Origin: Limnohabitans sp.
GTDB lineage: Bacteria; Pseudomonadota; Gammaproteobacteria; Burkholderiales; Burkholderiaceae_C
Direction: 5' to 3'
Assembly: GCF_023910625.1 (NCBI RefSeq)
Contig: NZ_JAAVVW010000003.1
Coordinates: forward strand, 2,418,001 to 2,482,000
DNA: 64,000 nucleotides
The notes below the pieces were generated by a model. That model saw nothing but the letters and a program-made list of their open reading frames with translations. It did no database searches and had not been told where the DNA came from. Numbering within the stretch: the stretch's first letter is position 1; the number at the start of each line of letters is the position of its first letter. Positions 1 to 18,419 of this stretch are shown one piece after another. A program made the position numbers and the translations under genes.

Positions 1-3000
1 GCGGGTGTTCAGGCGACCTAGAAAAATCCCCATACTCAGCTGGATTCCAAGCCTTCCACTGGTCAAGGCGCAGCCTGAGTCGGCTCATTACGGACGTTAA
101 CTCATCAGGTGCTACGGCCTTAACTCGATCGCAGATGATCTCCTCGATCCGATTCCTCAGTGCAGTGCCAAGTGCGAGCGGAAAGGGATCTGGTGTATCA
201 GCCTCGCGGCCTCTGTGACCGAGCTGCCGTACCAATGCGACGATCATTCCATGAAGGGCCCGGTCGATCGCCGGCGGACTGAACGGGGTGACGCTGGTCG
301 GCTCAACTTGGGCGTAGAGTTGCTGGTGGTAAGAACGAAACCGTTCATAGTGGCTACGGTCACGGGGTTTCGTCTGTCCATAGATCACTACTACCAGACC
401 TGGGCGCTCAAGATCCCGGCCGACGCGACTGGAGACTTGTATGTACTGTGACGTAGTCTTGGGTTGCCCAACGATCGCCATCAGAGACAGCCTTGGGACG
501 TCCACTCCCACTTCGATGATGTTTGACGCAAGACACGCGTCTATGGGAGCCGGGTTGGGGGCTGTCGCTCCTTTTCCTTCGCGGACCGTGACTGACACCT
601 CCAGTTGCTCCAGCAGGCGTGGAATGTGGTCGCCGCGGATGCGGCTAGTCAGCTCCTCGACGTGAAAGAGCTGGCGGATCCTTGAGTAATCGAGACCATG
701 GCGGTTCAAGATTACCTTGAGATATTCACGTGTATCAGCGGTGAAAAGGGTTGCAGCACCACCCAGTTCTCGCAAGGAGTTGAAGAATACGAGCAGGGTC
801 CACCATGGATCTAGATCGCATGCATCACCCTCTAGGAGGGAGGCATGTTGCATCAAGGTTGCGAAAACCCTGGCTTCAGATGTCTGTAGTGAAGTGTGTG
901 CAGGGGCAAGCACCCCTGCATAGAGCCTCCCTGGCTTCGGCCTACCTTGCTCGTCGCATGCTTCACGCGCAAAGAATGAGTCGGCAGCATCGAGCCCTGA
1001 GGGCGGAAAAAGCATGACACCTGAACGAGCATACAGACCCACAATCTGTTCGCGGGCACGACTGATCGTTGCAGTCGATGCAACAATCTTTGGAAGTATC
1101 ATTCCTCCGAGAGGATCAATGCACAGCGCCTCTATGACCGTTTCATAGGCGCCAACCATAGAACCCAGCGGCCCAGATATCAGGTGCAGCTCGTCTTGGA
1201 TGATCAATGTGGGCGGGATGCCACGATGGCGGCCCGATTCATCAAGTCCGAAAATGCTCCTTGCCGCCGGTGACCAGGCCAGCATCGCGAACTTGTCTAC
1301 TGTCCCGATCAGAAGATTGGGTGGCGAATCTAGCAGATCCTCATCAATCACAACAATCGGCAGAGGAGGCTTTCCGGGTCCGGGCAGACCGCCGAATTCA
1401 CAGGCGGCGTCACGGCAGCGGAATACGACAGTGTCACCGGAAGGACCGTGCTCCCTCTCATAACCATACACTTGGACACTTGCCGCTTGTCGTCCACCCC
1501 TGCCTCGCCCCCGCTGTTCTGTGGAGGGTCCGTCTTGGTGGGGGCCGAACTTTGCTGCGCACCATGGGCATCTGAGCAGCACGTATGGATTCTCTGCGTC
1601 TGGATCCCTCCGCAGCTTCTGCAGCTTGGCGACTGCGTCGTCCCGCTTGTTTGGCGTAGCAGAACTGCCCACCCAAAGCCCGATACGAAATGGCCTATCT
1701 CCTAAGGCGACTACATCCTTACGTCTCAGCTGCTCCATCGCGCAAAAGAGTGTGGCGGCGCGCTGGAACTGTTGTGCGGTTAGCAGCCGCAGCGTGTAAC
1801 GCATAAGTACATCGACACCGCCGTTGGAAACACCCGTTATCGCATTGAAGAAGACCGTGAAGGCGGTTAACCCAAGATATGCCTCCGTCTTACCACCGCC
1901 AGTGGGAAACCAAATGAGGTCGACTTCAGTCCTGTCGCGATGGGACGGGTCACATATTCCCCGCAACGACATGAGTAGAAATGCAATTTGGAACGGACGC
2001 CAATAGCCTTGCCTCTCGTTCGGTACCGATGGATCTAAGTCCGCGACCGGACGTGACCAAGTCAGTCTCCCGCTAGTGTCGTGCCCTGGCAGACGCAATT
2101 CTTGTCGTGCTCGTAGTTGGGCAACTAGCATGGCTTGGTTTGTCAGACTAAAAGCCTTGCGTGCTACATCTCCTATGGAGTCATGCTGCCGCAGAATCGA
2201 CAGTCCATCGGCAATACGATCGGCGCATCGACGGCAATTTTCTAAGAGTTCAGTTGCTGTTGGCCGATACGGTTCTGCAATCGTAATTACCGTCGATTCA
2301 AGTGAAGAAATCCAGGCGTGATACTCCTTCAGCAGATGGTCAATGTCAGCCAATCCATCGTCATTAGGCTGAAGACCTGCCAGCAATCTCATGCTAACGC
2401 GCAGTGGTACAAGTCTGCCTTCCGGGTCTTTTATCTGGAGATCGGCACTTGTTGCGGGCGTCTCGAAAACAGGCAGGACGTCCGACCACACCGTCTTGAC
2501 CCTTTTCGGACGCCCACTCATCCAGTCGGCGCCGCTGCCGTGGCCGATGGCAAATGTCCGGTTTTCCCTGTAAAGAACACGGTTGACGTTTTCGTCCGCC
2601 AACGGATCCGAAGCTTGGAAATCAGCGACCAGACTGTCCGGATACGGATCGATCCATTCACTGCTGCTTAAACCGCTAACCCGGATTCCAGCCTGAAAGA
2701 GGCACTGAGTTTCGAGCTCAGCTTCATTGACCTGCTTCTTGTTGGCAACTGAAATGGTCAGTAGCCGGTGCACCGTGCTCGGTGCTGAATGCCAAGTTCG
2801 TGAAACGACGATCAGTTCAAGTCCGAGTGCTGCGGGTCCGATCGAGCACCGCAAAGGACGGCGTGCGTTAAGAAGATCTGACGTCGCTAAGTGAATGACC
2901 GGCACTTTGCCATGCCCGTCGACAACCGGCTTTCTTAGCCAAACCTTGCGCGGCGTCGGCTTCTTACCGACACTGCTGCCCAGCTGAAGAGTAAGTGGTG

Positions 3001-3541
3001 CATAGACGCCGCATGGTTGTTCGATGGTTTTCTCTAGTCCAACCCGGCCGACGTTCACAAGCTCGATAGAGATTCCCTCGGGTTCTGATGCCAGATCGGC
3101 TAGGAAGCTGACGCCTATTGCCGAAGGTCGAAATGCATTGGCTAGCGTGACGTCTTCTTCTTCTGGCTCGTCTGCCGGCGCGCCGAATGAAGATGCTCGC
3201 TCAAATGGCGATTTTTCATCTCCAGACAGCAGCCCCGGGTGGGGCACCTCAGGCACATTGCTAAGTATTGCCTCCTCAGTCTCAGTCGCATTGACCACAG
3301 TCTCTTCGGTGGCGCCAAGTGGGTAAAGGATGCCTGCGCCAAACCGTTTGGTTGGGGGGTCTTGCCAGACGATTTCCTGCCCGTCCTCTTGCATTCGTGG
3401 GATCCGGTACTCTTCCCAAGTCATCGTTTGCTTATCAACTAGGGATACAGGTTTGCCGGCTGGATCCGGCCCCACGATCTCGGCCCGTAGGCGAGTTAGC
3501 ATCTGCTCTCTGTTAGCAAGATTCTTATCTAGTGATGACAT
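1..3541 (-). CDS. DrmA-like DISARM/YprA-type helicase (C-terminus beyond window)
   Basis: An uninterrupted frame of about 1,180 codons runs from the ATG at 3541 off the left edge, so the C-terminus is not visible. Seen: a Walker A motif FPTGGGKTEAYLGL with Lys at about residue 551, a DEXH-type box IIQDELHLISGPLG (Asp783-Glu784), a cysteine pair region (CPWC and CRDAAC, about 655-715) and a C-terminal helicase lobe with TTSQYIQVSSRVGRD (Arg about 1042) followed by SHYERFRSYHQQLYAQVEPT. This pattern is characteristic of the DISARM helicase DrmA, a superfamily-2 YprA-like family that acts in anti-phage defense. The start overlaps the stop of the upstream helicase gene by 3 bases (ATGA), so the two are probably translationally coupled. 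DrmB (DUF1998) and DrmC (PLD nuclease) genes would be expected just left of the window; this cannot be checked here. A Druantia- or ARMADA-class YprA helicase is the alternative. Confidence 0.78.
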   Translation of the reverse strand, partial: MSSLDKNLANREQMLTRLRAEIVGPDPAGKPVSLVDKQTMTWEEYRIPRMQEDGQEIVWQDPPTKRFGAGILYPLGATEETVVNATETEEAILSNVPEVPHPGLLSGDEKSPFERASSFGAPADEPEEEDVTLANAFRPSAIGVSFLADLASEPEGISIELVNVGRVGLEKTIEQPCGVYAPLTLQLGSSVGKKPTPRKVWLRKPVVDGHGKVPVIHLATSDLLNARRPLRCSIGPAALGLELIVVSRTWHSAPSTVHRLLTISVANKKQVNEAELETQCLFQAGIRVSGLSSSEWIDPYPDSLVADFQASDPLADENVNRVLYRENRTFAIGHGSGADWMSGRPKRVKTVWSDVLPVFETPATSADLQIKDPEGRLVPLRVSMRLLAGLQPNDDGLADIDHLLKEYHAWISSLESTVITIAEPYRPTATELLENCRRCADRIADGLSILRQHDSIGDVARKAFSLTNQAMLVAQLRARQELRLPGHDTSGRLTWSRPVADLDPSVPNERQGYWRPFQIAFLLMSLRGICDPSHRDRTEVDLIWFPTGGGKTEAYLGLTAFTVFFNAITGVSNGGVDVLMRYTLRLLTAQQFQRAATLFCAMEQLRRKDVVALGDRPFRIGLWVGSSATPNKRDDAVAKLQKLRRDPDAENPYVLLRCPWCAAKFGPHQDGPSTEQRGRGRGGRQAASVQVYGYEREHGPSGDTVVFRCRDAACEFGGLPGPGKPPLPIVVIDEDLLDSPPNLLIGTVDKFAMLAWSPAARSIFGLDESGRHRGIPPTLIIQDELHLISGPLGSMVGAYETVIEALCIDPLGGMILPKIVASTATISRAREQIVGLYARSGVMLFPPSGLDAADSFFAREACDEQGRPKPGRLYAGVLAPAHTSLQTSEARVFATLMQHASLLEGDACDLDPWWTLLVFFNSLRELGGAATLFTADTREYLKVILNRHGLDYSRIRQLFHVEELTSRIRGDHIPRLLEQLEVSVTVREGKGATAPNPAPIDACLASNIIEVGVDVPRLSLMAIVGQPKTTSQYIQVSSRVGRDLERPGLVVVIYGQTKPRDRSHYERFRSYHQQLYAQVEPTSVTPFSPPAIDRALHGMIVALVRQLGHRGREADTPDPFPLALGTALRNRIEEIICDRVKAVAPDELTSVMSRLRLRLDQWKAWNPAEYGDFSRSPEHP

Positions 3542-5322
3542 CAGAAATTCCCCTTAAGTGCTGCTTTGAGGCCCGCATCTACCATTGAGTCGTATCTAGA
3601 ACGCAGACGCTCATGCATGAAAACATGAAGCCGAACCCTTGCTCGAGACATGCCGACATAGAGCAGTGCCTTGGACTGTTCGTCATCTACGTTTTCGATG
3701 TCAGTAAGGATGATGGCGGGAGCCTCTAGTCCCTTGAACGCATGGACACTGGTATATCTGACAGAAGCCCCGCTATCAGGCATTCCTCGATAGGAATTGA
3801 ATTGCCAGTGGTCTTGTTCGCGAGGTAGCCGGGAGACGCAGGAAGATGAGTCGGAACGCATTGACAGGACGATGATCTCTGCTGGCGCAAAGGATTTCAG
3901 GAGCTTTGTAATGGTCGCGAGTAGGAGCTCACCCTGATGTGATGTGCTTCGGTAGAAGACGGGTTCGACATCTGCTGAATCGGTGGTACTGAGGATCTTG
4001 CTGTAGCCCGGTGACAATCCACATGTAATCGTAACTGCCTCCGCGATCCTAGTGGCATTCCGGCAATTGATGCGCAACCGGTATGTCGAAATACTGTCCG
4101 CGGTGCGCCTTAGCAGTCGATCAAGTCCGGAACCTGCACTGTTATCGGCGTAGATTGCCTGTCGTTCGAAGTCACCGAACAGTGCCCATTGTCCGCTTGC
4201 AAGACCACCGCGCAGCAGCAGCTCCATAACATCAAGAAATGGGTTTGACAGCAGGTCCTGCGCTTCGTCTACGAGCAGCAGATCGAAGGTCGGTGTTTTG
4301 CGATCATCGACCAGTAATGCATCGACGGCACGCCCTGGCAGCTCGATTTCCCAGAACCTGCTGTCGGCAGTTGCTGGAACATCGGCATCCGCAACTTGGC
4401 GCATGAGTCCTGAAAGGTTCCCGACATAGAAAGGAATAGATCGTGCCTTTGCTTCATCTCCGATCGCGGCGGTCTCTCTCTTAAGCCACATGGCTAGAAG
4501 ACCGTTGAAACATAACAAGGCAACGCTGCGGCCATCGAAAATAGCTCTTCGAGCAGCTTCGATCGCAAGAAACGTCTTGCCCGTGCCGGCTGGCCCCTTG
4601 AATATGACTCGACGGTTGTCATCAAGGTGATCCAGTGCTTCGAATTGTTCTTCCGTGAATCTGCGTATGGCATCTTCAGCCAGTTCCACATCATTGCGGC
4701 TGGAAGCAACGTATTCGAAGTTGGGTCGCAGGAGCCGGAGCATGGATTCGAGCTGCCGTAGGGTGGGACGGCTCTGGTTGCTGTACCAGGCAGGTTTTGG
4801 ATTGCGGGCCCGGCACTGGGAATGGGCAGCCTCGAGCACTTGGGTCACAACTGCCGATATCGGTTGCCTTAGAAAGTCGGTCCTTCCGATTATTTGCCAG
4901 GGTTCCCACTCGAGCGACTTTTCTAAAAAATCGATTTCGGTGAAGAGGACGGCGGAGTAGAAAAGAAGAGAACCGAGGGACCGATCTTTATGCGATAAGT
5001 ATTGTCGAATCGAATGTGCGGCTTGACTCGCCTGACGGAACGGGCCTACTGTGGACGTCTTAGGTGGATCGTAGGAGTACTTCCAGAGCCCATCCTCTCT
5101 GATAACATTGCAGCCCTTCACTTCGATGCAGAGAACGCCAAGGCCTGGCGCAATGATGAGCATGTCAGCTTCACCTTCTGCACGAGCTACATGGCGACGT
5201 ATGTCGAATGAGTGAAGTACCAGCCAGTCCCTAGTCATGGGATCATCCCGGAGCCTAGAAAATAACTGTCTTTCGCCCCAAGGCGCACCCGAGGAGACCA
5301 AAGGAGGAATCATCCTTGCCAT
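3541..5322 (-). CDS. NERD nuclease-domain / superfamily-1 (UvrD-like) helicase
   Basis: 593 aa. The N-terminus (about 14-110) resembles a NERD (nuclease-related) domain: GE near residue 16, E50/D53 and the IEVKG core with Glu67 and Lys69, as in PD-(D/E)xK-like folds. A helicase follows: TEEQFEAL (about 223), Walker A GPAGTGKT (243-250), Walker B LLLVDEAQDLL (348-358), SVHAFKGLEA (525-534) and YVGMSRAR (555-562). Predicted role: ATP-driven DNA unwinding or translocation joined to DNA cleavage. It is the third gene of a four-gene leftward operon. Its ATG overlaps the TAA of the gene before it by one base, and its TGA overlaps the start of the DrmA-like gene. That coupling argues that the protein works with the DrmA-like helicase. 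NERD-helicases also occur alone in other defense islands, so context rather than sequence ties it to this system. Confidence 0.82.
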   Translation of the reverse strand: MARMIPPLVSSGAPWGERQLFSRLRDDPMTRDWLVLHSFDIRRHVARAEGEADMLIIAPGLGVLCIEVKGCNVIREDGLWKYSYDPPKTSTVGPFRQASQAAHSIRQYLSHKDRSLGSLLFYSAVLFTEIDFLEKSLEWEPWQIIGRTDFLRQPISAVVTQVLEAAHSQCRARNPKPAWYSNQSRPTLRQLESMLRLLRPNFEYVASSRNDVELAEDAIRRFTEEQFEALDHLDDNRRVIFKGPAGTGKTFLAIEAARRAIFDGRSVALLCFNGLLAMWLKRETAAIGDEAKARSIPFYVGNLSGLMRQVADADVPATADSRFWEIELPGRAVDALLVDDRKTPTFDLLLVDEAQDLLSNPFLDVMELLLRGGLASGQWALFGDFERQAIYADNSAGSGLDRLLRRTADSISTYRLRINCRNATRIAEAVTITCGLSPGYSKILSTTDSADVEPVFYRSTSHQGELLLATITKLLKSFAPAEIIVLSMRSDSSSCVSRLPREQDHWQFNSYRGMPDSGASVRYTSVHAFKGLEAPAIILTDIENVDDEQSKALLYVGMSRARVRLHVFMHERLRSRYDSMVDAGLKAALKGNF

Positions 5323-6998
5323 TAGGTCACCTTTAGCTTTGTCAGATGGAACAAAGCAGACGTGGGCACTTTTCTTGTCATGGTGTCGATGGCAGCCACT
5401 CGAAGCAGGCCCATCCGGCCGGCTGCCACGCCCGTCAATTCAATCGCTTCGACCGTCTCGATGTGACGACGTTCGACAACGAATTTACGGACTTGGTCGA
5501 GCAGCTCCGTGCGAATGGCGACGCCAGCCTTCTGATGGTATGCCTTTAATCTTTCCATTTCCTCCCATCTTGCATCGGCATAGAACTTGGGCGCATCATC
5601 TATGTCCATGCCCTCTAGTTGCCAAATGGTCGCTATCAGGTGCTGGAATGTTTCGCGATCATGGGGCGCCATCACGGCAGCCCCCGCCCATTCCCAGAGG
5701 TACTGGGGCGATCGGAGTTTGACGCCAAGACCTTGCATCTTCACTGCTACTACGCCTTCCCCGTGTAGCTTGATAACTCGTTCGAGCTTATCTTTCCATT
5801 GAAGAGCGCTGCGGCGCAATCCTTCTTCGCCGGCCTGCTGAATCAGAGCGTCAGCAACATCGTCTAAATAGTCGCCGCTTCCAGACAGCCTCAGCATCAC
5901 TAGGTCGCCCTCGTCAAGGTCCCTTACTAGGACACGGGGAAGCTTATCTTCTGCGATGTTGAAGCTGGCCCCTTTTTCGAATAGATCAGAGACCTCCACT
6001 ACACGTCCAGATATAGGTAGAAAAGTGCCGCTTCCGTCCGCGAACAGGATGAACTGGGCGTCTACGGTGAGATCACTTTCCGAGGTTGGGGAAAAATTAT
6101 TGTGTTGGGCGTGGATGGACGCCCAGAGCGATTCTTTTGCCCATCCATTGTCGATCTCAGTAGCCTCAATAAACACGTCTGATTCCTGCTTCTCGCGGGG
6201 ATGATGAGCGGTTGACGGAAAGAAGTGGTCCTTTGGAAGATCCTTGGGGGCTGGCAAGGATGCGTGTTCTGATCGATAGCCTATTACAACGACGTCCGCA
6301 GTCAGTCCTCCATAAAGCAGGTCGAAGAGAAGGCCCCTTGGGGCAAGCCAAGGATTTCCAGGGATGATTAATCGAGCGTAAAGTGAGTCTCTTGTCTGAC
6401 GCCTGCGTCGAATGAGTTTCAATGCTGCGAGGTGGAAGTCGGATTCTGAATCAACGGATGAGGGCCACCCAGGTGTAGGCGATCCGCAGACATTGGCGAG
6501 AGCAGCTGGAGGAAGGTTGCTTCGCATCGGCTCTCTAAGAACTGTCAGCACTGCGTCTCGTTTTGGATTGACTGCGCTTGAAATGAGCGACTGGACGGCG
6601 CTTATCAAGTCATCTACTGCAGTTCGGATTGCTGGCATGCTTAAGGACGCGTGCAGCAGCTTGTCTAGATGCTCGTTCACACCTAGACGCGGATCATCGA
6701 ATGGCAATGCTGTGAGCATGAGCGATGTCTTCACTAGCCACGCGTGTCGTGCTGCTTCGCATTGGAGCGGATCCTCTCGGTCAACGCCTGAGAAAATCAA
6801 CGAGCAGGCTTTGGCAATACTCTGGATCGGCTGAAAGTCGATGACTACTATCCGCGGTCTGGTCTCAACAGCATTTGCATGGTATGCGGTTATCAGATCT
6901 AGGGTAGTTATTGTTGCGACTGCAGCACTAGGCACTGTTGACTCCGTCTGAAATGGTTGAATCATGAGGGTGCCTTGCGCACTCATGTGGCGCCTCAT
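5322..6998 (-). CDS. Defense-operon protein of unknown function (558 aa)
   Basis: 558 aa, not confidently recognised. No Walker motifs, membrane segments or signal peptide are visible. The N-terminal third is alpha/beta-like (TRPRIVVIDFQPIQSIAKAC near 47-66; ADVVVIGY near 234). A middle part (about 300-350) reads FILFADGSGTFLPISGRVVE and RVLVRDLDEGDLVMLR, which suggests a small beta-rich barrel. The C-terminus is helical, with conserved-looking WKDKLERVIKLHG and SPQYLWEWAGAAVMAP. The gene lies between the 333-aa gene (4-base ATGA overlap) and the NERD-helicase (1-base overlap), so it is co-translated with both. Together with the 333-aa protein it has about the size expected for DrmE of class 2 DISARM, and a split DrmE-like protein is my working guess, unverified. 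The first ATG is used because it gives the ATGA overlap; a second ATG a few codons in is possible. Confidence 0.75.
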   Translation of the reverse strand: MRRHMSAQGTLMIQPFQTESTVPSAAVATITTLDLITAYHANAVETRPRIVVIDFQPIQSIAKACSLIFSGVDREDPLQCEAARHAWLVKTSLMLTALPFDDPRLGVNEHLDKLLHASLSMPAIRTAVDDLISAVQSLISSAVNPKRDAVLTVLREPMRSNLPPAALANVCGSPTPGWPSSVDSESDFHLAALKLIRRRRQTRDSLYARLIIPGNPWLAPRGLLFDLLYGGLTADVVVIGYRSEHASLPAPKDLPKDHFFPSTAHHPREKQESDVFIEATEIDNGWAKESLWASIHAQHNNFSPTSESDLTVDAQFILFADGSGTFLPISGRVVEVSDLFEKGASFNIAEDKLPRVLVRDLDEGDLVMLRLSGSGDYLDDVADALIQQAGEEGLRRSALQWKDKLERVIKLHGEGVVAVKMQGLGVKLRSPQYLWEWAGAAVMAPHDRETFQHLIATIWQLEGMDIDDAPKFYADARWEEMERLKAYHQKAGVAIRTELLDQVRKFVVERRHIETVEAIELTGVAAGRMGLLRVAAIDTMTRKVPTSALFHLTKLKVT

Positions 6999-7996
6999 GC
7001 CGTTGACTCGACCTGCATTGGCAGACCGAATATGAAGAGCTGAACGCTCATGGGCGGGGTCATGACACCATTCTTTGGCAGGTGGATACCGTCATCGACT
7101 GCATGGTCAAGATAAGTCTGGAAAAGTTGCTCCAAGTCCTCGTCGTATTCCGCTTGATCAAGCAGGACCACTACGCTACTCGCTGTGGTGTCCTTCATTC
7201 GGCGCGCCGCGGCGGCGCCGTCGAGAATTGTCATCAACCCGGGCTCATCGGGGATGCCTTCGCTGCGAGCGTGAGCTACCCTAGTCTTGCCATGCGTCCT
7301 GCCCGAAGCGTCAGCTATTGCCAAAATAGCCGAGCAGTCGGCTTGGGCAATTCCGGCCGCGTGAACGGCCAAGCCTTCGAGATCCCCCATAAAGGATGTC
7401 AACTCAGTGATGACGGTACATTCGATAGTAGGCGACCTGAACCAGCCTTTAGGAGCGCCGTTCAGAATCGCCTCGATGACCAGCTCTGCATCAGTCAGTC
7501 TGGCATCAGTGATGGTGCTCACTGTGCCGAGGGTTATTCCATAGGAAAGTGCTGCAGACTTGGCAAAGAAGCGGCTGCCCTGATGAGACTTCCTCTGCCC
7601 TTGCATGACAACCTCCAAAAATTCGCCCGTTTCAATTTGGCGAACCCCGACAACCATACCTGATCGACGAATGTACTTGCCCGACGCAGATTCACGCCAG
7701 AAGACCTTCCGGCCGGGAGCAAGATCCTTCAACTCCTCCCAGTCTAGCGAATCGTCATAAAGTCGGGCTGATGCGAATGTGGCACCCAATGCCGTGAAAG
7801 CAGCGGCCAGCCTTCTGCTTGGTAATCTCACGACGGCAACCCGTCGGCCTCTAAAGGCGGTCTGGACCCTCATCCACTGACCAAGCCATACAAGCCAGTC
7901 GATCCAAGGGGGTGGTGCAATTGACTTCACACCGTCAGAGAGGGCCAAGTTGTCGCGCTTAAGGGCTTGAATGACTTCATCGATGTTTACTTGCAC
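6995..7996 (-). CDS. Defense-operon protein of unknown function (333 aa), first gene of operon
   Basis: 333 aa. It starts at a GTG (7996) with a GGAGG ribosome-binding site about 12 bases upstream. No catalytic motif is recognised. Visible segments: RRVAVVRLPSRRLAAAFTAL (about 50-69), which suggests a Rossmann-like strand-helix unit; DDSLDWEEL followed by GRKVFWRES; and near the C-terminus SSVVVLLDQAEYDEDLEQLF, which resembles a nucleotide-hydrolase or phosphoacceptor strand but lacks a P-loop. It is the promoter-proximal gene of the four-gene leftward operon, and its TGA overlaps the next ATG by four bases. I infer that it is a structural or regulatory partner of the 558-aa protein, possibly the N-terminal half of a split DrmE-like protein. 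Plain family assignment was not possible. Confidence 0.75.
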   Translation of the reverse strand: MQVNIDEVIQALKRDNLALSDGVKSIAPPPWIDWLVWLGQWMRVQTAFRGRRVAVVRLPSRRLAAAFTALGATFASARLYDDSLDWEELKDLAPGRKVFWRESASGKYIRRSGMVVGVRQIETGEFLEVVMQGQRKSHQGSRFFAKSAALSYGITLGTVSTITDARLTDAELVIEAILNGAPKGWFRSPTIECTVITELTSFMGDLEGLAVHAAGIAQADCSAILAIADASGRTHGKTRVAHARSEGIPDEPGLMTILDGAAAARRMKDTTASSVVVLLDQAEYDEDLEQLFQTYLDHAVDDGIHLPKNGVMTPPMSVQLFIFGLPMQVESTA

Positions 7997-8124
7997 AGTA
8001 CAAACACTCCTCCATTTGGTTGAATTATTGACTTATTATGGTGCTCCATTCTTGTCAGAACTAAGAATGTTCATATTGCGAATTCATAGCTTTTGGCAAA
8101 GTCAACTTACATGGAGAGAGTTGG
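7997..8124. promoter_or_regulatory. Divergent promoter region between defense operon and AIPR gene
   Basis: This 128-base A+T-rich gap separates the leftward four-gene operon (GTG at 7996) from the rightward AIPR gene (ATG at 8125), so it must carry at least two promoters. A TTGACT at about 8028 could serve as a -35 element for the rightward gene. GGAG lies about 9 bases before the AIPR start. I could not fix -10 elements or an operator with confidence. Confidence 0.4.
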
Positions 8125-10194
8125 ATGGACGAGAACTTGGCAATATTCCGTGATGGAGTAGTTAAACGCGCAATTGAAGAGTTCGGCGGCCGAGACCCCG
8201 AGGCTGGATTCGGCGTTGTTGCAGGGCAATTGTTGGAAGATGCTGAGGAGCTGACTGATTTCGTGGCCAGTCCATACCGCGGCACAGGGGCGAGGCGCAG
8301 GAGTCTCGGAATAGACGGATATGCGTTCGATGAGGTGGATGGCTCCTTACGTCTGGTCATTGTCGAGTTCAGCGGGGACAAGCTCCCGGTCACTCTCACG
8401 CAGACTACGGCGAAGACCATCTTCGGAAGGGTTATTGCATTTGTCGACGAAGCATTGTCAGGTAACGATGACCACCTTCCAGCAGACGAAGATCCCGCCA
8501 CAGATCTGTCTGCTTTAATGCATCTGCATAGGGCAAATATCACGAGGTTGCGGATCTATCTGGCGACTGATGCGCTCATGAGCGACCATATCCGTAACTG
8601 GCCAGAGGAGACTGTAGGTGGAATTCCTGCCGAGTTCCACATCTGGGATATTGCCCGTTTTCATGACGCATTCACATCTAGTTCAGGGCGCGAGGCCTTG
8701 ATAGTCAACTTCAAAAAGCTAGTTGATGATGGGGTCCCGTGTCTTAAGGCCAGCCTGAATCAGTCAGAATACAGTGGCTATCTTTGCGTTCTTCCCGGCG
8801 ATGCCCTGGCTCGTATGTATGAAGAATATGGCAGTCGTCTTCTTGAAGGAAATGTCAGAAGTTTCTTGGGGAAGGCTGTGAAGGTGAACAAGGCTATTCG
8901 TGAGACCACCCTGCGTAGCCCCGAGATGTTCTTTGCTTTCAACAACGGGATCGCAGCTACCGCGACTTCGGTCGAAACCTTGCTCACCCCTGATGGCATG
9001 AGGCTTCTTTCTGCAACCGACCTGCAGATCGTGAATGGCGGACAGACCACTGCATCTCTGGCACATGCACGTCGAAAAGACGGAGCAGAGCTTGGTGGGA
9101 TTTTTGTGCCAATGAAGCTTTCTGTTGTGGATGCAGGAAGATCAGATGAGATGATTCCCAAAATCTCTGAGTTTGCAAACAGGCAAACCAAGGTGTCCGA
9201 CTCAGACCTTTTCTCGAATCACGCTTTTCATAGAAAGATGGAGGAGTTGTCGAGACGGATCAAGGCACCACCGAGGGCAGGATCGCAGAGACCAACGACT
9301 TGGTTCTACGAACGCGCAAAAGGCCAGTATCGCATCGAGACGACAAAGATGAGTCCGTCTGAAAAGCTTCGATTTGAAGCCGATAATCCCAGGCGTCAAC
9401 TCATCACAAAGACAGATTTGGCCAAAATTGAAAACTCTTGGCGACAGATGCCACATGAGGTCAGTAAAGGCGCACAAAAGAACTTTGATGTTTACAGCCG
9501 ATTTATTGTTGCCGAATGGCTGAACAATCCTCTTCAGTTCAACGATGAGTTTTTCAAGGCAGTAGCTGCACATGCGATTGTGTTCCGCGATCTGGAGCAA
9601 CTCATTCCAACACAGACTGATTGGTATGACGGTGGCTATCGAGCAAACATCATTACATTCACTATTGCGAAGCTGATCCAAGTAATTTCAGAGCAGGGGG
9701 CGGGAAGGGTTTTGAACCTTCAATCCATCTGGCGGGCGCAGGCGATTTCTCCAGCACTAACCGAGCAGCTGAAGGTGATTGCAAAAAACATGTACGAAGT
9801 GATTACATCCCCTGAACAGGGGATAGAAAACATCACGGAATGGTGCAAGAAAGAACTGGCTTGGCAGCGTGCTCAACAGAAGCAGGCTCAGCTGCTGCCG
9901 GCGTTGGCAGCAGAGCTTGTGTCTCAGACAGAAGTTCAGCATCGCATGGAGGACGCCGTTGTAGTTGCACGCATTGACTCGGATATTGCTGCAATCACGG
10001 AGGTAGTGAACTACAAATATTCGAATTGGCGAAAGCTTCGTGATTGGGGAATTCAATGCAAGGAGCTGACTCCAAAGGAAGACCAACTTTTGATGTTGGC
10101 TGGCTCATCTGGTCGGGTTCCAACTTCCAAGCAAGCAGTGGCAATTCTCCTGATTCGCAAACGTCTAGAGCAGGCGGGCTACCAAGGTAGTTAG
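8125..10194 (+). CDS. AIPR family abortive-infection phage-resistance protein
   Basis: 689 aa, close to the usual size of the AIPR (PF10592) family. The family core is clear at about 225-420: LYEEYGSRLLEGNVRSFLG-like sequence, then VNKAIRETTLRSPEMFFAFN, NGIAATA, IVNGGQTTASLAHA, PKISEFANRQTKVSDSDLFS and a WFYERAKGQY segment. AIPR proteins are linked to abortive infection and are often found beside restriction or DISARM-like genes; the biochemical activity is not settled. The N-terminal ~200 residues look like an extra domain (strand-rich, LRLVIVEFSGDKL) that resembles a degenerate restriction-endonuclease-like fold, but no catalytic motif is certain. The gene is transcribed away from the leftward defense operon and converges on the methyltransferase, with a hairpin between them. 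The start has GGAGAG upstream. It is one of the few rightward genes in this A+T-richer island. Confidence 0.8.
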   Translation: MDENLAIFRDGVVKRAIEEFGGRDPEAGFGVVAGQLLEDAEELTDFVASPYRGTGARRRSLGIDGYAFDEVDGSLRLVIVEFSGDKLPVTLTQTTAKTIFGRVIAFVDEALSGNDDHLPADEDPATDLSALMHLHRANITRLRIYLATDALMSDHIRNWPEETVGGIPAEFHIWDIARFHDAFTSSSGREALIVNFKKLVDDGVPCLKASLNQSEYSGYLCVLPGDALARMYEEYGSRLLEGNVRSFLGKAVKVNKAIRETTLRSPEMFFAFNNGIAATATSVETLLTPDGMRLLSATDLQIVNGGQTTASLAHARRKDGAELGGIFVPMKLSVVDAGRSDEMIPKISEFANRQTKVSDSDLFSNHAFHRKMEELSRRIKAPPRAGSQRPTTWFYERAKGQYRIETTKMSPSEKLRFEADNPRRQLITKTDLAKIENSWRQMPHEVSKGAQKNFDVYSRFIVAEWLNNPLQFNDEFFKAVAAHAIVFRDLEQLIPTQTDWYDGGYRANIITFTIAKLIQVISEQGAGRVLNLQSIWRAQAISPALTEQLKVIAKNMYEVITSPEQGIENITEWCKKELAWQRAQQKQAQLLPALAAELVSQTEVQHRMEDAVVVARIDSDIAAITEVVNYKYSNWRKLRDWGIQCKELTPKEDQLLMLAGSSGRVPTSKQAVAILLIRKRLEQAGYQGS

Positions 10195-10257
10195 TCGCGC
10201 ACAGTTTAGGCGTTGAGCGCATTTGGTTAAATTGAAATCTAAATTTGTATCTAGACG

Positions 10258-10292
10258 CGAAGCGAAGCATGTCGCTTCGTTCAACATTTTTT
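10258..10292. terminator. Bidirectional terminator between AIPR and methyltransferase genes
   Basis: Perfect 8-bp arms CGAAGCGA / TCGCTTCG with a 6-base loop (10258-10279), followed by a short T-rich run on the plus strand (10287-10292). It lies in the 101-base gap between two convergent genes, so it probably ends both transcripts. Confidence 0.6.
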
Positions 10293-10295
10293 CAT

Positions 10296-11858
10296 TTACG
10301 CGCCTGACACTATCAAGTTCACTACATGAGCAATCTGGTTAGCAAGCAGCGATGGCACCGCATTCCCGACTTGGTGGTATTGCTGAGTCCGATTTCCTTG
10401 GAAGAAATAGTTGTCCGGGAATGTCTGTAGTCTTGCCGCCTCTCTTACCGTGAGGCTGCGACATTGCCGGGGGTCAGGATGAATGAAGTAGTGGCCGTCT
10501 TTGGCGATGTGGCTAGTCACAGTCGTACTTGGTGCCTTCTGTAGCTGCACTCTAAATCGATCAGCGAACTTGCCTGATTCCCAGTTAGCATGGTCAGGGG
10601 CAAGACCTTTGAGTGAAAAATCATGGTGGCCCTTGGGTGACCGGTTGAAGGTCTTGCCGAAAACGGCGGTGAAATAGTAGCGGGCAAGGTCACTGGACAT
10701 GTGTGAGCGTGCCTCATGGTTCAGCCAAACGTTGAGCCTTGGATCGGTTACCCATTTGTGAAATGTTGTCTGCCCATGAAAGGCGTTGTGGCGGGGAAAT
10801 CTGAGCGCTCCTGTTGCGAGACTTCCGTTCATGCGAAGCATCCCCGCTTTAAGTTCTTCAGCCAGCGTGCCCATGCGCTGTGCAATAGCATCTTTGTAGA
10901 GCATATTGGCGTTGCTAAGAACCGCTTCACACCATCCTTTATCGCTGTCGCTTGTGCTGAGTTTGCTACGTAAAAGTGGCATTCCTGAAAATGCATCTTC
11001 AACACAAAGCGGATCAGATTCCCGTAAGAATTTTTTTCCGTCGTAGCCAAGGTCCTCTCGCACGCCTAGCAAAATCACGCGATGTCTTGCCTGTGGAATT
11101 CCAAATTTTTCTGCTTTGATAACGAATTCACTGGCATCCAGTTCTTCGGGGTCGTCACCATGCACGAATTTCGCAGGTGAAACAAGTGAGTGAATGGTGT
11201 ATCGCGCACCGTCTCTTTTGCCAAGCGCTTGGCCCGGGTCCGTCAGGTCTCTGAGAATGTCGTGAAAGACGAGTTTGCCGCCCACCTTCGCTGAAAGAAT
11301 ACCTTTCACGTTTTCCATCACGAAAACTGCAGGTCGGCTGCGATGCAAGATGCGCAAATATTCTTTGTACAGAAAGTGACGGTGATCGTTTTCCGCTATG
11401 TAGTCCTGCTTGCCCATGTTGCGGGCGCGTCCCACAAGCGAGTAGGCCTGACAAGGGGGCCCGCCGATCAGCACAGTCTCATCTTCACGCAGTTTTGCTT
11501 GTTTAAGTAGAGCATCCAGTTGCTGGTTGTGTTCTGGATTGCCAAGCGTCAATTGGTGTGCCTCTGCGCTTGCAGCCTTCCACGCAAGTGGGAAAAGATC
11601 GCGCGGGTGCGGTGAATCCGCTGATTCGCAGAAACTGTAATAGGCATTCAGTGCCTTTTGATCGCCCTGTATCTTGCGAAAGAAGCTACGCAGAGTGAGT
11701 GTTTGGTGAGCACTGGATTCCATTTCTGCAGACAGTGCAATGTCAAAAATGGTGCCCTTCTTGTAGGTTGCAAAGCCCTCTCCAAGACCGCCTGGGCCTG
11801 CAAAGAGATCGATGATTTTGTATGTCATTTTTTGGGTATGGCGCGCAAGTCCACTCAT
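10296..11858 (-). CDS. DNA (cytosine-5-)-methyltransferase, DISARM DrmMII candidate
   Basis: 520 aa, with the C5-methylase motifs in canonical order: motif I IDLFAGPGGLGEGF (about 16-29, SAM binding), motif IV GGPPCQAYS with catalytic Cys136, motif VI VMENVKGIL (Glu182), motif VIII QARHRVILLG (256-265), then the target-recognition region, motif IX LTVREAARLQTFP and motif X QVGNAVP. It transfers a methyl group from SAM to C5 of cytosine and would protect host DNA from the island's restriction machinery. Class 2 DISARM uses a C5 methylase of this type (DrmMII), which fits the DrmA-like helicase at the other end of the island. The first ATG is kept; an ATG ten codons later (11828) is equally possible because neither has a clear ribosome-binding site. 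A stand-alone protective methylase is the alternative. Confidence 0.88.
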   Translation of the reverse strand: MSGLARHTQKMTYKIIDLFAGPGGLGEGFATYKKGTIFDIALSAEMESSAHQTLTLRSFFRKIQGDQKALNAYYSFCESADSPHPRDLFPLAWKAASAEAHQLTLGNPEHNQQLDALLKQAKLREDETVLIGGPPCQAYSLVGRARNMGKQDYIAENDHRHFLYKEYLRILHRSRPAVFVMENVKGILSAKVGGKLVFHDILRDLTDPGQALGKRDGARYTIHSLVSPAKFVHGDDPEELDASEFVIKAEKFGIPQARHRVILLGVREDLGYDGKKFLRESDPLCVEDAFSGMPLLRSKLSTSDSDKGWCEAVLSNANMLYKDAIAQRMGTLAEELKAGMLRMNGSLATGALRFPRHNAFHGQTTFHKWVTDPRLNVWLNHEARSHMSSDLARYYFTAVFGKTFNRSPKGHHDFSLKGLAPDHANWESGKFADRFRVQLQKAPSTTVTSHIAKDGHYFIHPDPRQCRSLTVREAARLQTFPDNYFFQGNRTQQYHQVGNAVPSLLANQIAHVVNLIVSGA

Positions 11859-12094
11859 GTTTAGATTGCCAGGAGGGCGACTTTATTTGCTGCGAAAAAA
11901 TCTATCACTGCTTGAGGCGACGGCCATTAACGCAGTGATAAATTTTGGTTTTTGGTCATTATCCGACTGGGAATGGCAGATGAAAGATCCCCGGACTAGC
12001 TTCCACCATTCCGCTCTGTACGTGGTTGAAATGAAATCAGCAACTTTGTGAGTATGCAACCAAGAATAGAAAAAATTCACACAGCACAGGTTCA

Positions 12095-12379
12095 TTAGTG
12101 GACTACGGCTTGCTTGACTTTCATGGACTTCTGGAAATAGTTGAGAGCCACCTCGTAGACCAAATCACCATGGCTCTCGAACAAGATGTGAATGCCCTCT
12201 TGCAATTTTTGGCACTCTAGGGGGGCGAAGACCTGTTCACCAGTCTCAATTGAAACAATGTCTTCAGGCTGGTCATCAGGATGAAAAAGAAGGCCTTCCA
12301 GATACAACTTGTTAAACCAGCGCTCCAAAGCGAAGCGGCTTTTGCCCGGGATTGCAGGGATGCGATTTTGCTTGTTCAT
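12095..12379 (-). CDS. Small hypothetical protein (94 aa) next to methyltransferase
   Basis: 94 aa. The start at 12379 is chosen over an upstream one because GGAGGT lies five bases before it. The protein is soluble and acidic in its middle (FHPDDQPEDIVSIETG), with no recognised domain. It points the same way as the methyltransferase gene, whose start is 236 bases downstream. It is divergent from the tiny genes at 12.54 kb, and two LexA-like boxes lie between them. An accessory or regulatory protein of the island is possible; no function is assigned. Confidence 0.65.
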   Translation of the reverse strand: MNKQNRIPAIPGKSRFALERWFNKLYLEGLLFHPDDQPEDIVSIETGEQVFAPLECQKLQEGIHILFESHGDLVYEVALNYFQKSMKVKQAVVH

Positions 12380-12470
12380 GCTACCTCCAATGATCTTTTG
12401 AGTTGCGCAGCAGTTTCGTGTTGAATCCGCAGTCGCTGCTTGCACTGATTTGCGAATTTATTCATCCATT

Positions 12471-12505
12471 GTGTATAAAAATACAGTACATGTATAGACA
12501 TACAG
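12471..12505. promoter_or_regulatory. Two tandem LexA-like (SOS) boxes
   Basis: GTGT-N8-ACAG at 12471-12486 and ATGT-N8-ACAG at 12490-12505. Each matches seven of the eight fixed bases of the LexA box CTGT-N8-ACAG, with A+T-rich spacers (ATAAAAAT and ATAGACAT) as in known boxes. Their centres are 19 bp apart, a spacing seen in strongly controlled SOS promoters. They lie between the divergent small genes at 12379 and 12541 and could control either. LexA binding is inferred. Confidence 0.6.
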
Positions 12506-12540
12506 TTAATTTATGTGCATCTTTTTATGGGGAGTTGCGC

Positions 12541-12684
12541 ATGAGCCACATGAACCAATCAGCAGTTGCTGGCCCGTATGTTTTTGAGCGTGGCGGACTA
12601 ACAAGCGTCAATGAACTTGATGCGACAACAGCGGTTGCGCGATTTGATTTTTTGCGAGGATTGCGACAGCGAAGTGCCTGTTGA
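12541..12684 (+). CDS. Tiny ORF (47 aa) downstream of LexA-like boxes
   Basis: 47 codons, with GGGGAG six bases before the ATG and the LexA-like boxes 36 bases upstream, so the start is well placed. The product (begins MSHMNQSAVAGPY) matches nothing I know. It overlaps the next small ORF in another frame, so either the two are translationally coupled or one indel has split a single small gene. Confidence 0.4.
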   Translation: MSHMNQSAVAGPYVFERGGLTSVNELDATTAVARFDFLRGLRQRSAC

Positions 12685-12742
12685 TGGCGCGGGGCTGTGT
12701 ACGTACTGCTTTAGTCCGATACCAGAAGACGGGGACGAATAA
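12611..12742 (+). CDS. Tiny putative zinc-ribbon protein (43 aa)
   Basis: 43 codons from ATG 12611 (or 40 from ATG 12620). The product contains CEDC and, 13 residues after the second of those cysteines, CTYC, a spacing consistent with a four-cysteine zinc ribbon, and ends in an acidic tail (PIPEDGDE). It overlaps the preceding ORF and has no good ribbon of its own upstream, so coupling or a programmed or accidental frameshift is plausible. No family is assigned. Confidence 0.4.
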   Translation: MNLMRQQRLRDLIFCEDCDSEVPVDGAGLCTYCFSPIPEDGDE

Positions 12743-13080
12743 TCTTTCTTGATGTGGGGCGTGGGCAGAGACAGTTTGTCCGACGCTCCCCGGTTTTCAA
12801 TCAGAAATTGACGATCTTTTCTTGGAATTGCGGGCCATAGACTGGCATGTCTCCATCTTTTCCGCCCCAGTGGCGTCGTTCCCACGCAAGAAGGCGAGCG
12901 AGGGCAAGGTGCAGGATGGAGGCAACGGATTGAACCACGGGCACGAGGCCCGAGGAATCAAGCCCCTCCAAACAAGCTCACTAGCTTGGCCACCTCGACA
13001 TTGCGCGGGTGTGAGCACCCGCAAAGAACACCCTGTTGCCCCGGATCCCTTGGCGATGAGACCGTCTCGCCTGCACTCGC
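12743..13080. other. Non-coding or decayed stretch
   Basis: No convincing gene. On the minus strand a 50-odd-codon open frame ending at 12801 reads LARLLAWERRHWGGKDGD, which looks protein-like and could be the tail of a decayed gene. A hairpin with 7-bp arms (GCGGGTG / CACCCGC, 13006-13023) lies downstream of the hydrolase gene but lacks a T-run. Confidence 0.3.
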
Positions 13081-13938
13081 TCAGCGTACCTCACCGGTGA
13101 AGGCTTTGAGGAAAAATGCCAGTGTCTTGCTGCGTGCATCCTCGGCGGCATCTGCATCGCGATAGAAGCGCACCTGTCCGCCTTTACCCTGATGGGCTGT
13201 GGGGTCGAAGATCAAACGGTCGGACCCTGCAGGCGAGTCGAATCCGTGGGTGGCACCGGGGTAGTGCTGCAGGGTCATCAATGCGCTGGCTGATGCGGGC
13301 AGGGCGTTGTAGAACAATTGAGCCGCGTCCGGCGGGCCGTAGTCGTCTTTGCCGCCCGAGACCAGCAGGACGGGGGCGCCGGTCAGCTCGGCATACACCC
13401 CAACCGTGGCGGCTTCCTTGGCAAGCTTCTCGTGCGCCCACCAGACCCCGTAGTACGCCGCGTGCGCGGCAAATGCTGGTTGACCATCTGCAAAGAAGCT
13501 GCGGTGCGTTTGCTTGGACGCAGTGCGCAGCGCCAAGTTACCACCCCACGAAAAACCCATCACGCCGATTTTCTTTGAATCCACCGCTGGGTGGCTGGCC
13601 AAAAACCGCAGAGCGCCATAAGCATGCGTCAACGTGGTGGTGTGGCCGCCCTTGAAGCGCCCGCCCTGCGGAAACATGAAGAGTTCCAGTGTCGCGATGC
13701 CTGACTTGTTCAGGGCTTGCGCGTGAAACGCGCCGCGTCCGTCTATGCCGCCGCTGCCATGCAGGATGACCACCGCTGGCACAGGCCGCTGAGCAGCTGC
13801 AGGCCATTGCAAGGTGGCGGTGACCTTCTCTTGTACAGGGAACCCGGCACCTACGGCACCTGGGAACGACACTTGCTCAGAGGCTGCCCAAACACACGCT
13901 GACAGGCACGCCATCAGCCCAATCAAGATGGATCGCAT
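13081..13938 (-). CDS. Secreted dienelactone-hydrolase-like alpha/beta hydrolase
   Basis: 285 aa from the ATG at 13938, chosen because AGGAG lies eight bases upstream and it opens directly into a signal peptide (MRSILIGLMACLSACVWA). The alpha/beta-hydrolase core is complete: oxyanion region VVILHGSGGIDGR, nucleophile elbow GFSWGG (Ser), acid in GGKDDYGPPDA and catalytic His in GATHGFD. The family hydrolyses esters or lactones; the substrate is unknown. The export signal suggests a periplasmic enzyme. It stands alone, between the island junction and an IS91-family remnant, and is G+C-rich like the genome rather than like the island to its left. Confidence 0.82.
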   Translation of the reverse strand: MRSILIGLMACLSACVWAASEQVSFPGAVGAGFPVQEKVTATLQWPAAAQRPVPAVVILHGSGGIDGRGAFHAQALNKSGIATLELFMFPQGGRFKGGHTTTLTHAYGALRFLASHPAVDSKKIGVMGFSWGGNLALRTASKQTHRSFFADGQPAFAAHAAYYGVWWAHEKLAKEAATVGVYAELTGAPVLLVSGGKDDYGPPDAAQLFYNALPASASALMTLQHYPGATHGFDSPAGSDRLIFDPTAHQGKGGQVRFYRDADAAEDARSKTLAFFLKAFTGEVR

Positions 13939-14195
13939 GGGATGTTTCTCCTGGGAGTTACGGTGGGTGGCGGAGAGGAAATCCGACCACTTGATCAAGA
14001 TTATGGCCCGGGTTTTGGGCATCACCAGCCTCCAGGCTGAGCCTGCGTAAGCACTGGTTCAGGTCCAGTTGCCCAAAATCTGCCGATTTCCCCACTCTTG
14101 GGGGGTGCAAGGTGCAGCCTGCCTCGCAGCGGCGGTCAGCTCGCTGCTTTGGCCCTCACCAACTGATGCGCTGATCGACCTCAAAGTCGGTCAGT

Positions 14196-14480
14196 GCTAT
14201 CGATGCCACCGCTGCGGCCCAGGTACAGGCCGATTTGCGCCGACGCATTCTGCGCGCCTTCGTGGGCCGGGGCCTGATCGAGAAGGCAGATGCCAAAGAC
14301 ATGCTGGCCTACCAGCACAGCGGCTTCTCGGTGGACGCTGGTGTGTGCATCGAGGCACACGACCGCGCTGCACTGGAGCGGCTGCTGAGGTACTGCGCCT
14401 GATCGCCTTGATGACCGAGGGCGTGCAGATCCGTCGGATTCTCGATCACATCGGCGTCGACTCAGAATGCCACACGGGCG
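14196..14480 (+). pseudogene. IS91-family (Y2) transposase remnant
   Basis: Two pieces of an IS91-type transposase are joined by an internal deletion. The first frame (14202-14402) reads QVQADLRRRILRAFVGRG, then DMLAYQHSGFSVDAGV and ALERLLRYCA, and then a stop. The next frame reads RLIALMTEGVQIRRILDHIG, the conserved C-terminal segment of these transposases. The zinc-binding N-terminus and the catalytic tyrosines are missing. The remnant marks the left border of the G+C-rich accessory block. The rest of 13939-14610 shows no gene. Confidence 0.7.
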
Positions 14481-14610
14481 GGAAATCCCGGGTTCGCTCG
14501 GGCTTCGAAGCCTTTTACTGGTGCGCGATACATCGGCTCGTGTGGTTGAATTTTTTTTACGTCATATGTGATGTCAATCTGATATATTGGTATTCAATTT
14601 TTTGACAGCC

Positions 14611-17600: not shown

Positions 17601-18384
17601 TCTCGGTCAGTTTCAAGCCTCCTGCGAGGCCCTGGCCGAGGCCGCCGCCGCCGGTGATCGCCTGCCGCCGCGCCAGCGCGCCCAATTGACCCAGCGTTTT
17701 GGCGAGCATGGCGGCATTGCCGCCCGCGCCATGCTGGGCTGGCCGCTGGCCATGTTGGGCCGCATTGACGAAGCCCTGGAACAAACCTACCTGGGCCTGC
17801 AGCAGGCACGCACGCTCGGCCATGCCCAGACCCTGGCATTTGCTTTGGGCATGGCGGGGGTGCTGCAACGCCACTTGCGCCGGCCCGAGGCCGCGCTGCC
17901 CCTCAGCATCGAGCTGCTGAGCCTCACCCAGCGTCATGGCCTGGCCCTGTGGCAGGCGGTTGGCGCACTGGTGCTGGGCTGGAGCCAGGCAGCCGGTGGC
18001 GACCCGGCCGGCCTGCTGCCCATACGCCAAGCCGCCAGCGCTTCAGCCGTGGCCATGCCAAGCACCGAAGCGACTTTTCTTTCCTTCCTGATCGAAGCGC
18101 TGCTGAACCTCGACCAGGCCGAGGAAGCCCTGGCACAGATAGACGCCTGCCTGCCCAAGGCACATGAGCGCCAAGAGCCCTACCTGCTGCCCGAACTCTG
18201 GCGCATGCGCGCCCAGGCCTTGGCAGCCCAAGGCGCGCCACGCGCCGACATCGAACAGGCGCTGGACAAAGCCATGCAGACTGCTCAAGCGATGGGTGCC
18301 GAGCTGCTTTTGCAACGCAGCACAGCTCAACGCCAGGCCTTGTCCAAGACCGCCAGCAGCGATTCAACGCAAATTCAACGCTAG
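14611..18384 (+). CDS. SARP/BTAD-type regulator with cyclase-like, ATPase and TPR regions
   Basis: 1,257 aa from ATG 14611; a TTG at 14587 would add eight residues and neither start has a clear ribosome-binding site. Domain order: winged-helix DNA-binding region (about 15-100, KVRALLAMLAL...LWPDSPLEQARANLRRAL) plus bacterial transcriptional activation domain (about 100-260); a degenerate class III cyclase-like domain (about 280-430); an NTPase with Walker A GEPGLGKT (484-491) and LLLEDLHWADPSTLELL (Walker B); then TPR-like helical repeats to the C-terminus. This is the AfsR/SARP plan: a nucleotide-gated transcription activator binding direct repeats. The gene's last codons lie inside the repeated leader that precedes the methyltransferase, so an operator may overlap its 3' end. 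Very G+C- and Ala/Leu/Gln-rich. Ligand unknown. Confidence 0.85.
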   Translation: MPAVSKQTSHAKGSLLRLLGGFELRDCLGRVLPLPYDKVRALLAMLALQTGPLARETLAETLWPDSPLEQARANLRRALFDLRRVLAQLWPDQPDLEPLLSDKKHLQLREDLAWQLDCRDFALAQLAAATPQPQARRQALQQALNLYRGPLLDGLQLPEAPGFEAWLQPRREALLRQAQQLLETLGQLFEDAGEAEAALACARRALAQDPWCEPALRRCMRMLAPTSAGEALALFEQFRLQLQSDLQIPPQAATQALAERLRNSAAQTPQAPAAHAERRRVVALACEWEVSSDEAAREAEALATALQARLQQARVLLQARGAHVQRAEGGALLAFFGHPRAQEQAPRLALDAALELAATDKRNSLAPRALRQGLHVGWVHADPELASPDSVGALSRQARKLALQAEANSIHVSAELQQQSERHHRFAATAEPGRGASLLGIRSAKASSRIYALNPMVGRSAELALLRQEWLLAQGSARTVWVQGEPGLGKTRLLQALHQHVAAAADNAPTPIYELQCRPEYRYTPLEPVRATLRRRMGTALKGDAGQAEAALSALLQQAGLPLAGHEAARALLRPLLLQHQNTSAPAEPLHKRELYTLLCELFEGLAQGRPELMLLEDLHWADPSTLELLQLHLQRQLEHPAPQRAPGLLLLSSREAPHDEVRASLDLCLNLQPLPPEDMARLIEQLDTAPASAAQRLQVLQRAGGVPLFAEELARSMRLRPSDKVPATLWDLLAASLDRLPPETKHVAQGAALLGSTSSPALLQELLQLPAGPLAQQLAQLQRLDLLQSIDLQHWQFRHALIRDAALETLSTSKRRALHRRAAQALMGPFSALAADAPEALAQHLQAAGDPVAAHYWLQAAERAAAQSAHQEARHGFEQGLAALQMTGAAPTLIQRLRLPLLLGLGRSLLALEGYGSASARQCLRQALQACDEPGAASGPGQRFQALWGLWLGSRSGPGESPVLTLAQELLDVAADTNDATADVQARYALGNNLFFLGQFQASCEALAEAAAAGDRLPPRQRAQLTQRFGEHGGIAARAMLGWPLAMLGRIDEALEQTYLGLQQARTLGHAQTLAFALGMAGVLQRHLRRPEAALPLSIELLSLTQRHGLALWQAVGALVLGWSQAAGGDPAGLLPIRQAASASAVAMPSTEATFLSFLIEALLNLDQAEEALAQIDACLPKAHERQEPYLLPELWRMRAQALAAQGAPRADIEQALDKAMQTAQAMGAELLLQRSTAQRQALSKTASSDSTQIQR

Positions 18385-18411: not shown

Positions 18412-18419
18412 GGGCAAAT

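Follow-up and report, generated by a model that had tools for sequence, protein, structure and literature searches.

Class 2 loci of DISARM (defense island system associated with restriction-modification) comprise DrmA, DrmB, DrmC, DrmE and the C5-cytosine methylase DrmMII, and those of class 1 are marked by the SNF2 helicase DrmD and the adenine methylase DrmMI. The DrmAB complex binds single-stranded DNA and 5′ overhangs, hydrolyzes ATP more slowly with methylated DNA, and is believed to recruit DrmC or other nucleases (PMC9142583). How DISARM destroys the DNA whose ends are sensed by DrmAB is a pertinent question, as the usual nuclease, DrmC, is often missing and apparently dispensable (PMC9142583). 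Two neighboring systems are described by Bell et al. (PMC12458937): TALON, in which a NERD nuclease accompanies a YprA-family helicase, and ARMADA, the Type II form of which carries a GajB-like helicase. The 64,000-nucleotide (nt) window of the Limnohabitans sp. genome analyzed here (C3:2418001-2482000), whose left edge cuts drmA, contains a locus that probably specifies a DISARM-type anti-phage system in which a methylase provides the mark, DrmA and DrmB act as sensors, and a NERD domain fused to a superfamily 1 (SF1) helicase degrades DNA in place of DrmC, with two proteins, P333 and P558, as adaptor and an AIPR protein as accessory.

The operon is transcribed from the minus strand in the order P333, P558, NERD/SF1 helicase, drmA and drmB (Table 1), with successive overlaps of 4 nt (6995-6998), 1 nt (5322), 1 nt (3541) and 4 nt (drmA/drmB). 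A divergent AIPR gene is located upstream and, beyond it on the minus strand, are the genes for the C5 methylase and then P116. The first-pass annotation, made from the window sequence, had listed six genes, all of which are present as it described them, and had noted overlaps of 1-4 bases, which were found within the window and again at the drmA/drmB junction outside it. It regarded the overlaps as a sign of a stable complex; the gene products would presumably form a complex and the locus act in defense. The locus resembles class 2 DISARM in its DrmA, DrmB, DrmMII-like C5 methylase and DrmE_C-bearing protein, but differs in that no DrmC was found, the DrmE-like part occupies two genes, a NERD/SF1 helicase resides inside the operon and a divergent AIPR gene precedes it. 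The proposal is founded on this gene content, on intact motifs, on a gene order that is conserved across phyla and on the lack of a DrmC match.

Table 1. Genes of the DISARM-type locus. Positions are those of the window; negative positions lie to its left.
Feature	Position	Strand	Length and matches
drmA	-145 to 3541 (in window 1..3541)	-	1228 amino acids (aa); PADLOC DrmA 682 bits; PDB 7s9v E=1.8e-143
drmB	-2259 to -142, outside window (L002:16742-18859)	-	705 aa; PADLOC 235 bits; 7s9v chain B E=1.2e-67
NERD nuclease domain fused to SF1 (UvrD-like) helicase	3541..5322	-	593 aa; Pfam NERD 46 bits, UvrD_C_2 35.6 bits
P558, DrmE-like C-terminal part	5322..6998	-	DrmE_C (PF24957) at residues 348-497
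P333, probable separate-gene N-terminal half of DrmE	6995..7996	-	kept directly before P558 in relatives
AIPR protein	8125..10194	+	689 aa; Pfam AIPR 312 bits, AIPR_N 114 bits
C5-cytosine DNA methylase, DrmMII-like	10296..11858	-	520 aa; Pfam DNA_methylase 152 bits; PADLOC DrmMII 293 bits
P116, small protein of unknown family adjoining methylase	12095..12445	-	conserved in L009, L007

Extension of the contig to the left, proposed in the first-pass annotation as a search for a DUF1998 gene, revealed DrmB directly adjoining drmA, and the DISARM core of DrmA and DrmB is therefore present. The helicase that had been called DrmA-like was confirmed as DrmA: it and DrmB match the solved Serratia DrmAB structure, and the NCBIfam DrmAS model scores DrmA at 843 bits, under its equivalog cut-off of 950. 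The motifs GGGKTEAYL and QDE[LM]HL and a C-terminal [LM]-R-x-V-[DE] are kept in all 18 DrmA proteins compared. Alignment of the window-locus DrmA with its Serratia counterpart covers two stretches, and V1208, paired by the offset (88) at the alignment end, would fall within the C-terminal motif on Serratia V1296, the proposed methylation sensor (PMC9142583). The methylase scored best with DrmMII among 57 PADLOC families, with type II methylases also scoring up to 233 bits. Methylase motifs I, IV (PPCQ), VI (ENV), VIII and X are present. The class 1 components DrmD and DrmMI had no PADLOC match among the 13 proteins scanned (seven plus six).

The shared YprA helicase-NERD pairing of TALON and the GajB-like helicase of ARMADA Type II give some ground for placing the locus in ARMADA, TALON or the DNA-repair YprA/MrfAB branch instead of DISARM, and a YprA/ARMADA-type variant had been offered as an alternative in the first-pass annotation. 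However, DrmA and DrmB are separate genes, each with its best match to DrmA or DrmB, and no BrxHII, PglX, TPR-CSD or TBP match was detected among the proteins scanned, which makes such a placement highly improbable. ARMADA, which has a YprA helicase with fused DUF1998 and nuclease, was rejected since DrmA and DrmB are separate here, the methylase is of C5 type, and neither a BrxHII-like helicase nor a PglX-like methylase was matched among the proteins scanned. TALON, in which the helicase is ARMADA-like and is accompanied by TPR-CSD and TBP genes (neither matched among the proteins scanned), likewise was rejected, as the helicase at the window locus is DrmA with DrmB encoded separately and the NERD domain is fused to SF1.

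The NERD residues E17, D53, E67 and K69 and the SF1 Walker A (G-x4-GKT, 243-250) and VDExQD (351-356) motifs are invariant in ten of ten aligned rows; since these key residues are intact, the enzyme looks active, by prediction, both as nuclease and as motor. DrmC had no PADLOC match among the 13 proteins, and a profile of two DrmC sequences (30% identical to each other, E=1.9e-35) matched none of the 873 frames in 102 kb around the locus; the PLD (phospholipase D) gene for which the first-pass annotation had suggested a search was not found in this region. A DrmC query against the whole genome produced only an E=0.027 match, in a 482-aa frame that lies ~0.8 Mb away and has two PLD domains; PLD matches are present in one more frame, of 695 aa. 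The place of its gene in the operon, its conservation and the failure to find DrmC suggest that NERD/SF1 is the nuclease of the system. Alternatively, the locus may be an ordinary DISARM without DrmC that has no dedicated nuclease or borrows a PLD protein encoded elsewhere, NERD/SF1 being a separate, co-transcribed defense gene. This possibility gains from the dispensability of DrmC and the mention of other PLD nucleases as possible substitutes (PMC9142583), from the two PLD-domain frames in the genome, and from NERD/SF1 genes that reside away from DrmA (L014, L025, L067, L075). It is nevertheless unlikely, as the NERD gene overlaps both of its neighbors by 1 nt at the window locus, L007 and L010, is found in the same position ahead of drmA in Burkholderiales, Rhodococcus and Deinococcus, and the distant PLD proteins are not DrmC-like beyond the one weak match.

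P333 and P558 were described in the first-pass annotation as two unrecognized proteins. Both are present and P333 has no Pfam match, but P558 bears DrmE_C, at 24.2 bits as a protein and 27.2 bits in a six-frame search, with a cut-off of 27. A profile of the four Burkholderiales P558 sequences matched a 483-aa Nostoc plasmid protein (6e-14) that carries DrmE_C above cut-off (28.2 bits). The Nostoc protein as query matched a 507-aa R. opacus protein (3e-12) and a Priestia piece (1e-10) with DrmE_C at 28.8 bits. The D. psychrotolerans counterpart scored 0.057 with the four-copy profile and 3.4e-7 once Nostoc was added, and the R. opacus counterpart was not reached by the four-copy profile at E 0.1 but was matched after the same addition; these two matches thus rest on an intermediate. 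A four-copy P333 profile located the protein upstream of the P558 counterpart in Nostoc (3.2e-8), a second Nostoc plasmid (1.7e-9), R. opacus (8.9e-5, with a frame longer than the annotated start gives) and D. psychrotolerans (3.1e-12), and therefore P333 and P558 are conserved as a pair. Judged from these similarities, the two most likely represent DrmE in two genes. An 801-aa L. plantarum protein was considered as DrmE and rejected for want of detectable similarity. P558 alone as query returned nothing in plasmid and phage searches, the distant relatives having been reached through the NERD gene and DrmA. The P558-bearing variant is rare in the samples searched: P558 occurs in 3 of 399 Burkholderiales genomes, and an eight-row P558 profile matched 1 of 369 genomes in a class sample and DrmE_C 1 of 398 in a phylum sample, the match being this genome in both cases. 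On a Priestia megaterium plasmid (L021:8332-10803) three genes (330, 206 and 278 aa) are annotated across the DrmE-like region, the last with DrmE_C; the division may be natural or may reflect a broken gene.

The comparison of gene order in related genomes that the first-pass annotation had recommended revealed the set in three other Burkholderiales loci. P333, P558, NERD/SF1, DrmA, DrmB and the divergent AIPR gene recur at 58-94% identity in L007 (G038), L009 (a Burkholderiales metagenome-assembled genome, MAG) and L010 (a second MAG, the contig of G393). A scan of named genomes with two narrow peptide patterns gave two loci, one on the same contig as G393. The methylase and P116 occupy the same places in L007 and L009, P116 being 88% identical in L009 and 26% in L007; in L010 the methylase, 43% identical to that of the window, follows drmB and P116 was not found. 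P116 has no Pfam match at 0.1 or below. The five-gene core is arranged in the same order on plasmids of Rhodococcus opacus (pROB02) and Deinococcus psychrotolerans. As relatives in distant bacteria share the core, the cluster looks to be a real, little-described version of DISARM, and the DISARM-variant reading of the first-pass annotation is supported by the DrmA and DrmB matches and by this conservation. A decayed relative at L064 (G087):9465-14002, in which P333, P558, NERD and AIPR were not detected, retains DrmB (947 bits), a C-terminal piece of DrmA and a related methylase (719 bits); upstream is a gene that resembles a transposase.

The NERD gene is coupled to DISARM genes in other arrangements also, so that the recruitment of an SF1 helicase-nuclease proposed in the first-pass annotation extends well beyond this genome. 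It lies before drmA in D. gobiensis and directly after drmB in Rhizobium, Azospirillum, the Burkholderiales genome G231 and the viral-collection contig L076. The latter four loci are like the window locus in possessing DrmA, DrmB and the NERD/SF1 helicase, with related C5 methylases in G231 and L076 (522 bits; 1e-171), but differ in the position of NERD and in that P333 and P558 were not found by profile. The G231 locus (L063:1030-17147) is mixed, with a C5 methylase, a Vsr-looking gene, a 594-aa unknown, an SNF2 helicase that is DrmD-like by position, NERD/SF1, DrmB, DrmA and a UvrD helicase. Among 399 Burkholderiales genomes, 13 have DrmA (E<=1e-30), 16 a NERD/SF1 match (E<=1e-10; at most three candidates scored per genome) and four both, the genes being clustered in all four (P of four or more = 0.001). 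DrmA is adjacent or one gene apart in at least 8 of 20 NERD/SF1 plasmid records (expected 0.02), as counted with 40 listed of 86 DrmA records, and broken DrmA and DrmB pieces adjoin the NERD gene in a ninth, from Burkholderia aenigmatica.

Trees were constructed with 18 DrmA, 18 DrmB and 15 NERD rows. The rows with P333/P558 (8 of 18), namely the window locus, three Burkholderiales, Nostoc, R. opacus, D. psychrotolerans and Priestia, group in a single clade (DrmA 100/100, DrmB 100/99). DrmC-bearing loci (L022, L065) and those with NERD after drmB (L018, L019, L063) fall in the other half of the trees, the DrmA proteins of Rhizobium, Azospirillum and G231 among them. In the NERD tree the window locus groups with R. 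opacus (100/99), Azospirillum and Rhizobium stand apart (100/100), and D. gobiensis and G231 join the window-locus group at 91/100, short of the star assigned by the tool. A tentative proposal, for which the prospects are nearly balanced, is that NERD/SF1 has taken over from DrmC as DISARM effector on more than one occasion, with its gene ahead of drmA in the split-DrmE clade (Burkholderiales, Rhodococcus and Deinococcus) and immediately after drmB, the usual position of DrmC, in Rhizobium, Azospirillum, G231 and L076. The trees, which are rooted at midpoints and contain several long rows and some open forks, do not fix the number of recruitments. If the proposal is correct, DISARM consists of a DNA-end sensor, DrmAB, that stays constant and of nucleases that can be exchanged. 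A four-helix bundle predicted in P558 (residues ~55-144) might stand in, within the split-DrmE clade, for the four-helix bundle reported in DrmC.

Several observations weigh against the interpretation of the locus as a DISARM variant with NERD/SF1 as its nuclease and a divided DrmE. In Nostoc (two plasmids) and Priestia, which belong to the same clade, the P333/P558 pair or its pieces accompany DrmA and DrmB with no NERD gene between P558 and drmA; thus, NERD is not obligatory. The association in Burkholderiales is narrowed by the fact that only 6 of the 16 NERD/SF1 matches extend into the NERD part, the others covering the helicase alone, and three of the four co-occurrences are one related group, the P333/P558-bearing loci. 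Similarly, three of the eight plasmid records are near-identical Rhizobium. A general link between NERD and DrmA is countered by L014, L025 and L067, which show no DrmA of note, and by the viral-collection loci, one of four of which (L076) has DrmA. The two distant PLD-domain frames might be used by DrmAB instead. The DrmE_C scores of P558 straddle the cut-off, P333 is weakly linked to the DrmE-like set of Priestia (E=0.0028; hhalign probability 4%), and the structure models are poor (mean predicted local distance difference test, pLDDT, 35 and 37). Finally, neither the methylase nor AIPR was matched in the D. psychrotolerans stretches, and AIPR was not matched in L012.

If the locus is nonetheless a DISARM-type system, the methylase would mark host DNA, and DrmA with DrmB would load on exposed single-stranded or 5′-overhang DNA without the mark and then translocate; DNA-end sensing and discrimination of methylation by DrmAB here are suggested by analogy with the published Serratia complex. 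NERD/SF1 would follow DrmAB as a dedicated helicase-nuclease and degrade the DNA, the role that DrmC is thought to have elsewhere. Genomic context hints that P333 and P558 may act as adaptor or loading subunits and that AIPR may add an accessory layer, which this Burkholderiales lineage has retained.

The AIPR protein is 77-94% identical in the three other Burkholderiales loci, whereas its profile had no match in any plasmid locus compared. It is termed accessory because it is kept in four Burkholderiales loci and was not found in the plasmid relatives; the recruitment of AIPR put forward in the first-pass annotation accordingly holds for the former and does not extend to the latter. It is possible, if somewhat doubtful, that the AIPR gene, alone or together with the methylase and P116, constitutes an independent defense module beside DISARM and not part of it. 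Divergent transcription and its restricted distribution would fit a separate module, as would the occurrence of AIPR with a C5 methylase in other, MZA-like systems (PMC9523054), but the place and divergence of the gene are the same in four of four Burkholderiales loci, including L010 in which the methylase is on the other side. MZA itself was rejected, as AIPR scores 317 bits against an MzaE cut-off of 1050 bits and no other Mza match was detected in the 13 proteins scanned.

DNA destruction by DISARM becomes testable in a lineage whose operon includes a dedicated helicase-nuclease: one active-site change in this enzyme should part sensing from destruction. The probable two-gene DrmE would also allow its parts to be studied apart, and typing of DISARM by DrmC would overlook such systems. 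No description of a NERD-DISARM association was found in the literature searched, which left out supplements and most subscription papers. Many uncharacterized DISARM-like classes are mentioned by Bell et al. (PMC12458937), and the variant in the window may be among those in the supplement.

The first-pass annotation placed the genes in an A+T-richer stretch, which is borne out by a G+C content per kb of 49-57% over 1-13000 versus 61-71% over 13001-30000; values dip again in parts of 30001-44000 (53-62%). In G234, of the same genus, a gyrB-type gene (named by appearance; 94% identical protein) is followed by ~1.5 kb and then by a match to the window from 31363 onwards. As the G234 sequence rejoins at this point, ~40 kb of the window genome (-8513 to 31363), which includes the cassette, is without counterpart beside the gyrB-type gene and marks a variable spot, through either insertion here or loss there. 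L009 matches the stretch from 12600 to -3045 at 85% across 15.7 kb, together with 30026-31304, and thus its copy of the cassette adjoins the same right-hand flank. It seems that the cassette is mobile as a unit, ending near a DUF3427 gene. Three partial copies of a DUF3427 gene segment are located at -7254 to -2580 (L002) with 94-99% identity, and the copy just past drmB (211 aa) is conserved in L009; the copies are perhaps recombination points at the cassette edge. A RES-Xre toxin-antitoxin pair (L002:14197-15284, minus strand) lies to the left of the DUF3427 gene, and a helix-turn-helix gene and a HipA-looking gene, both named by appearance, are present at L002:12107-13807.

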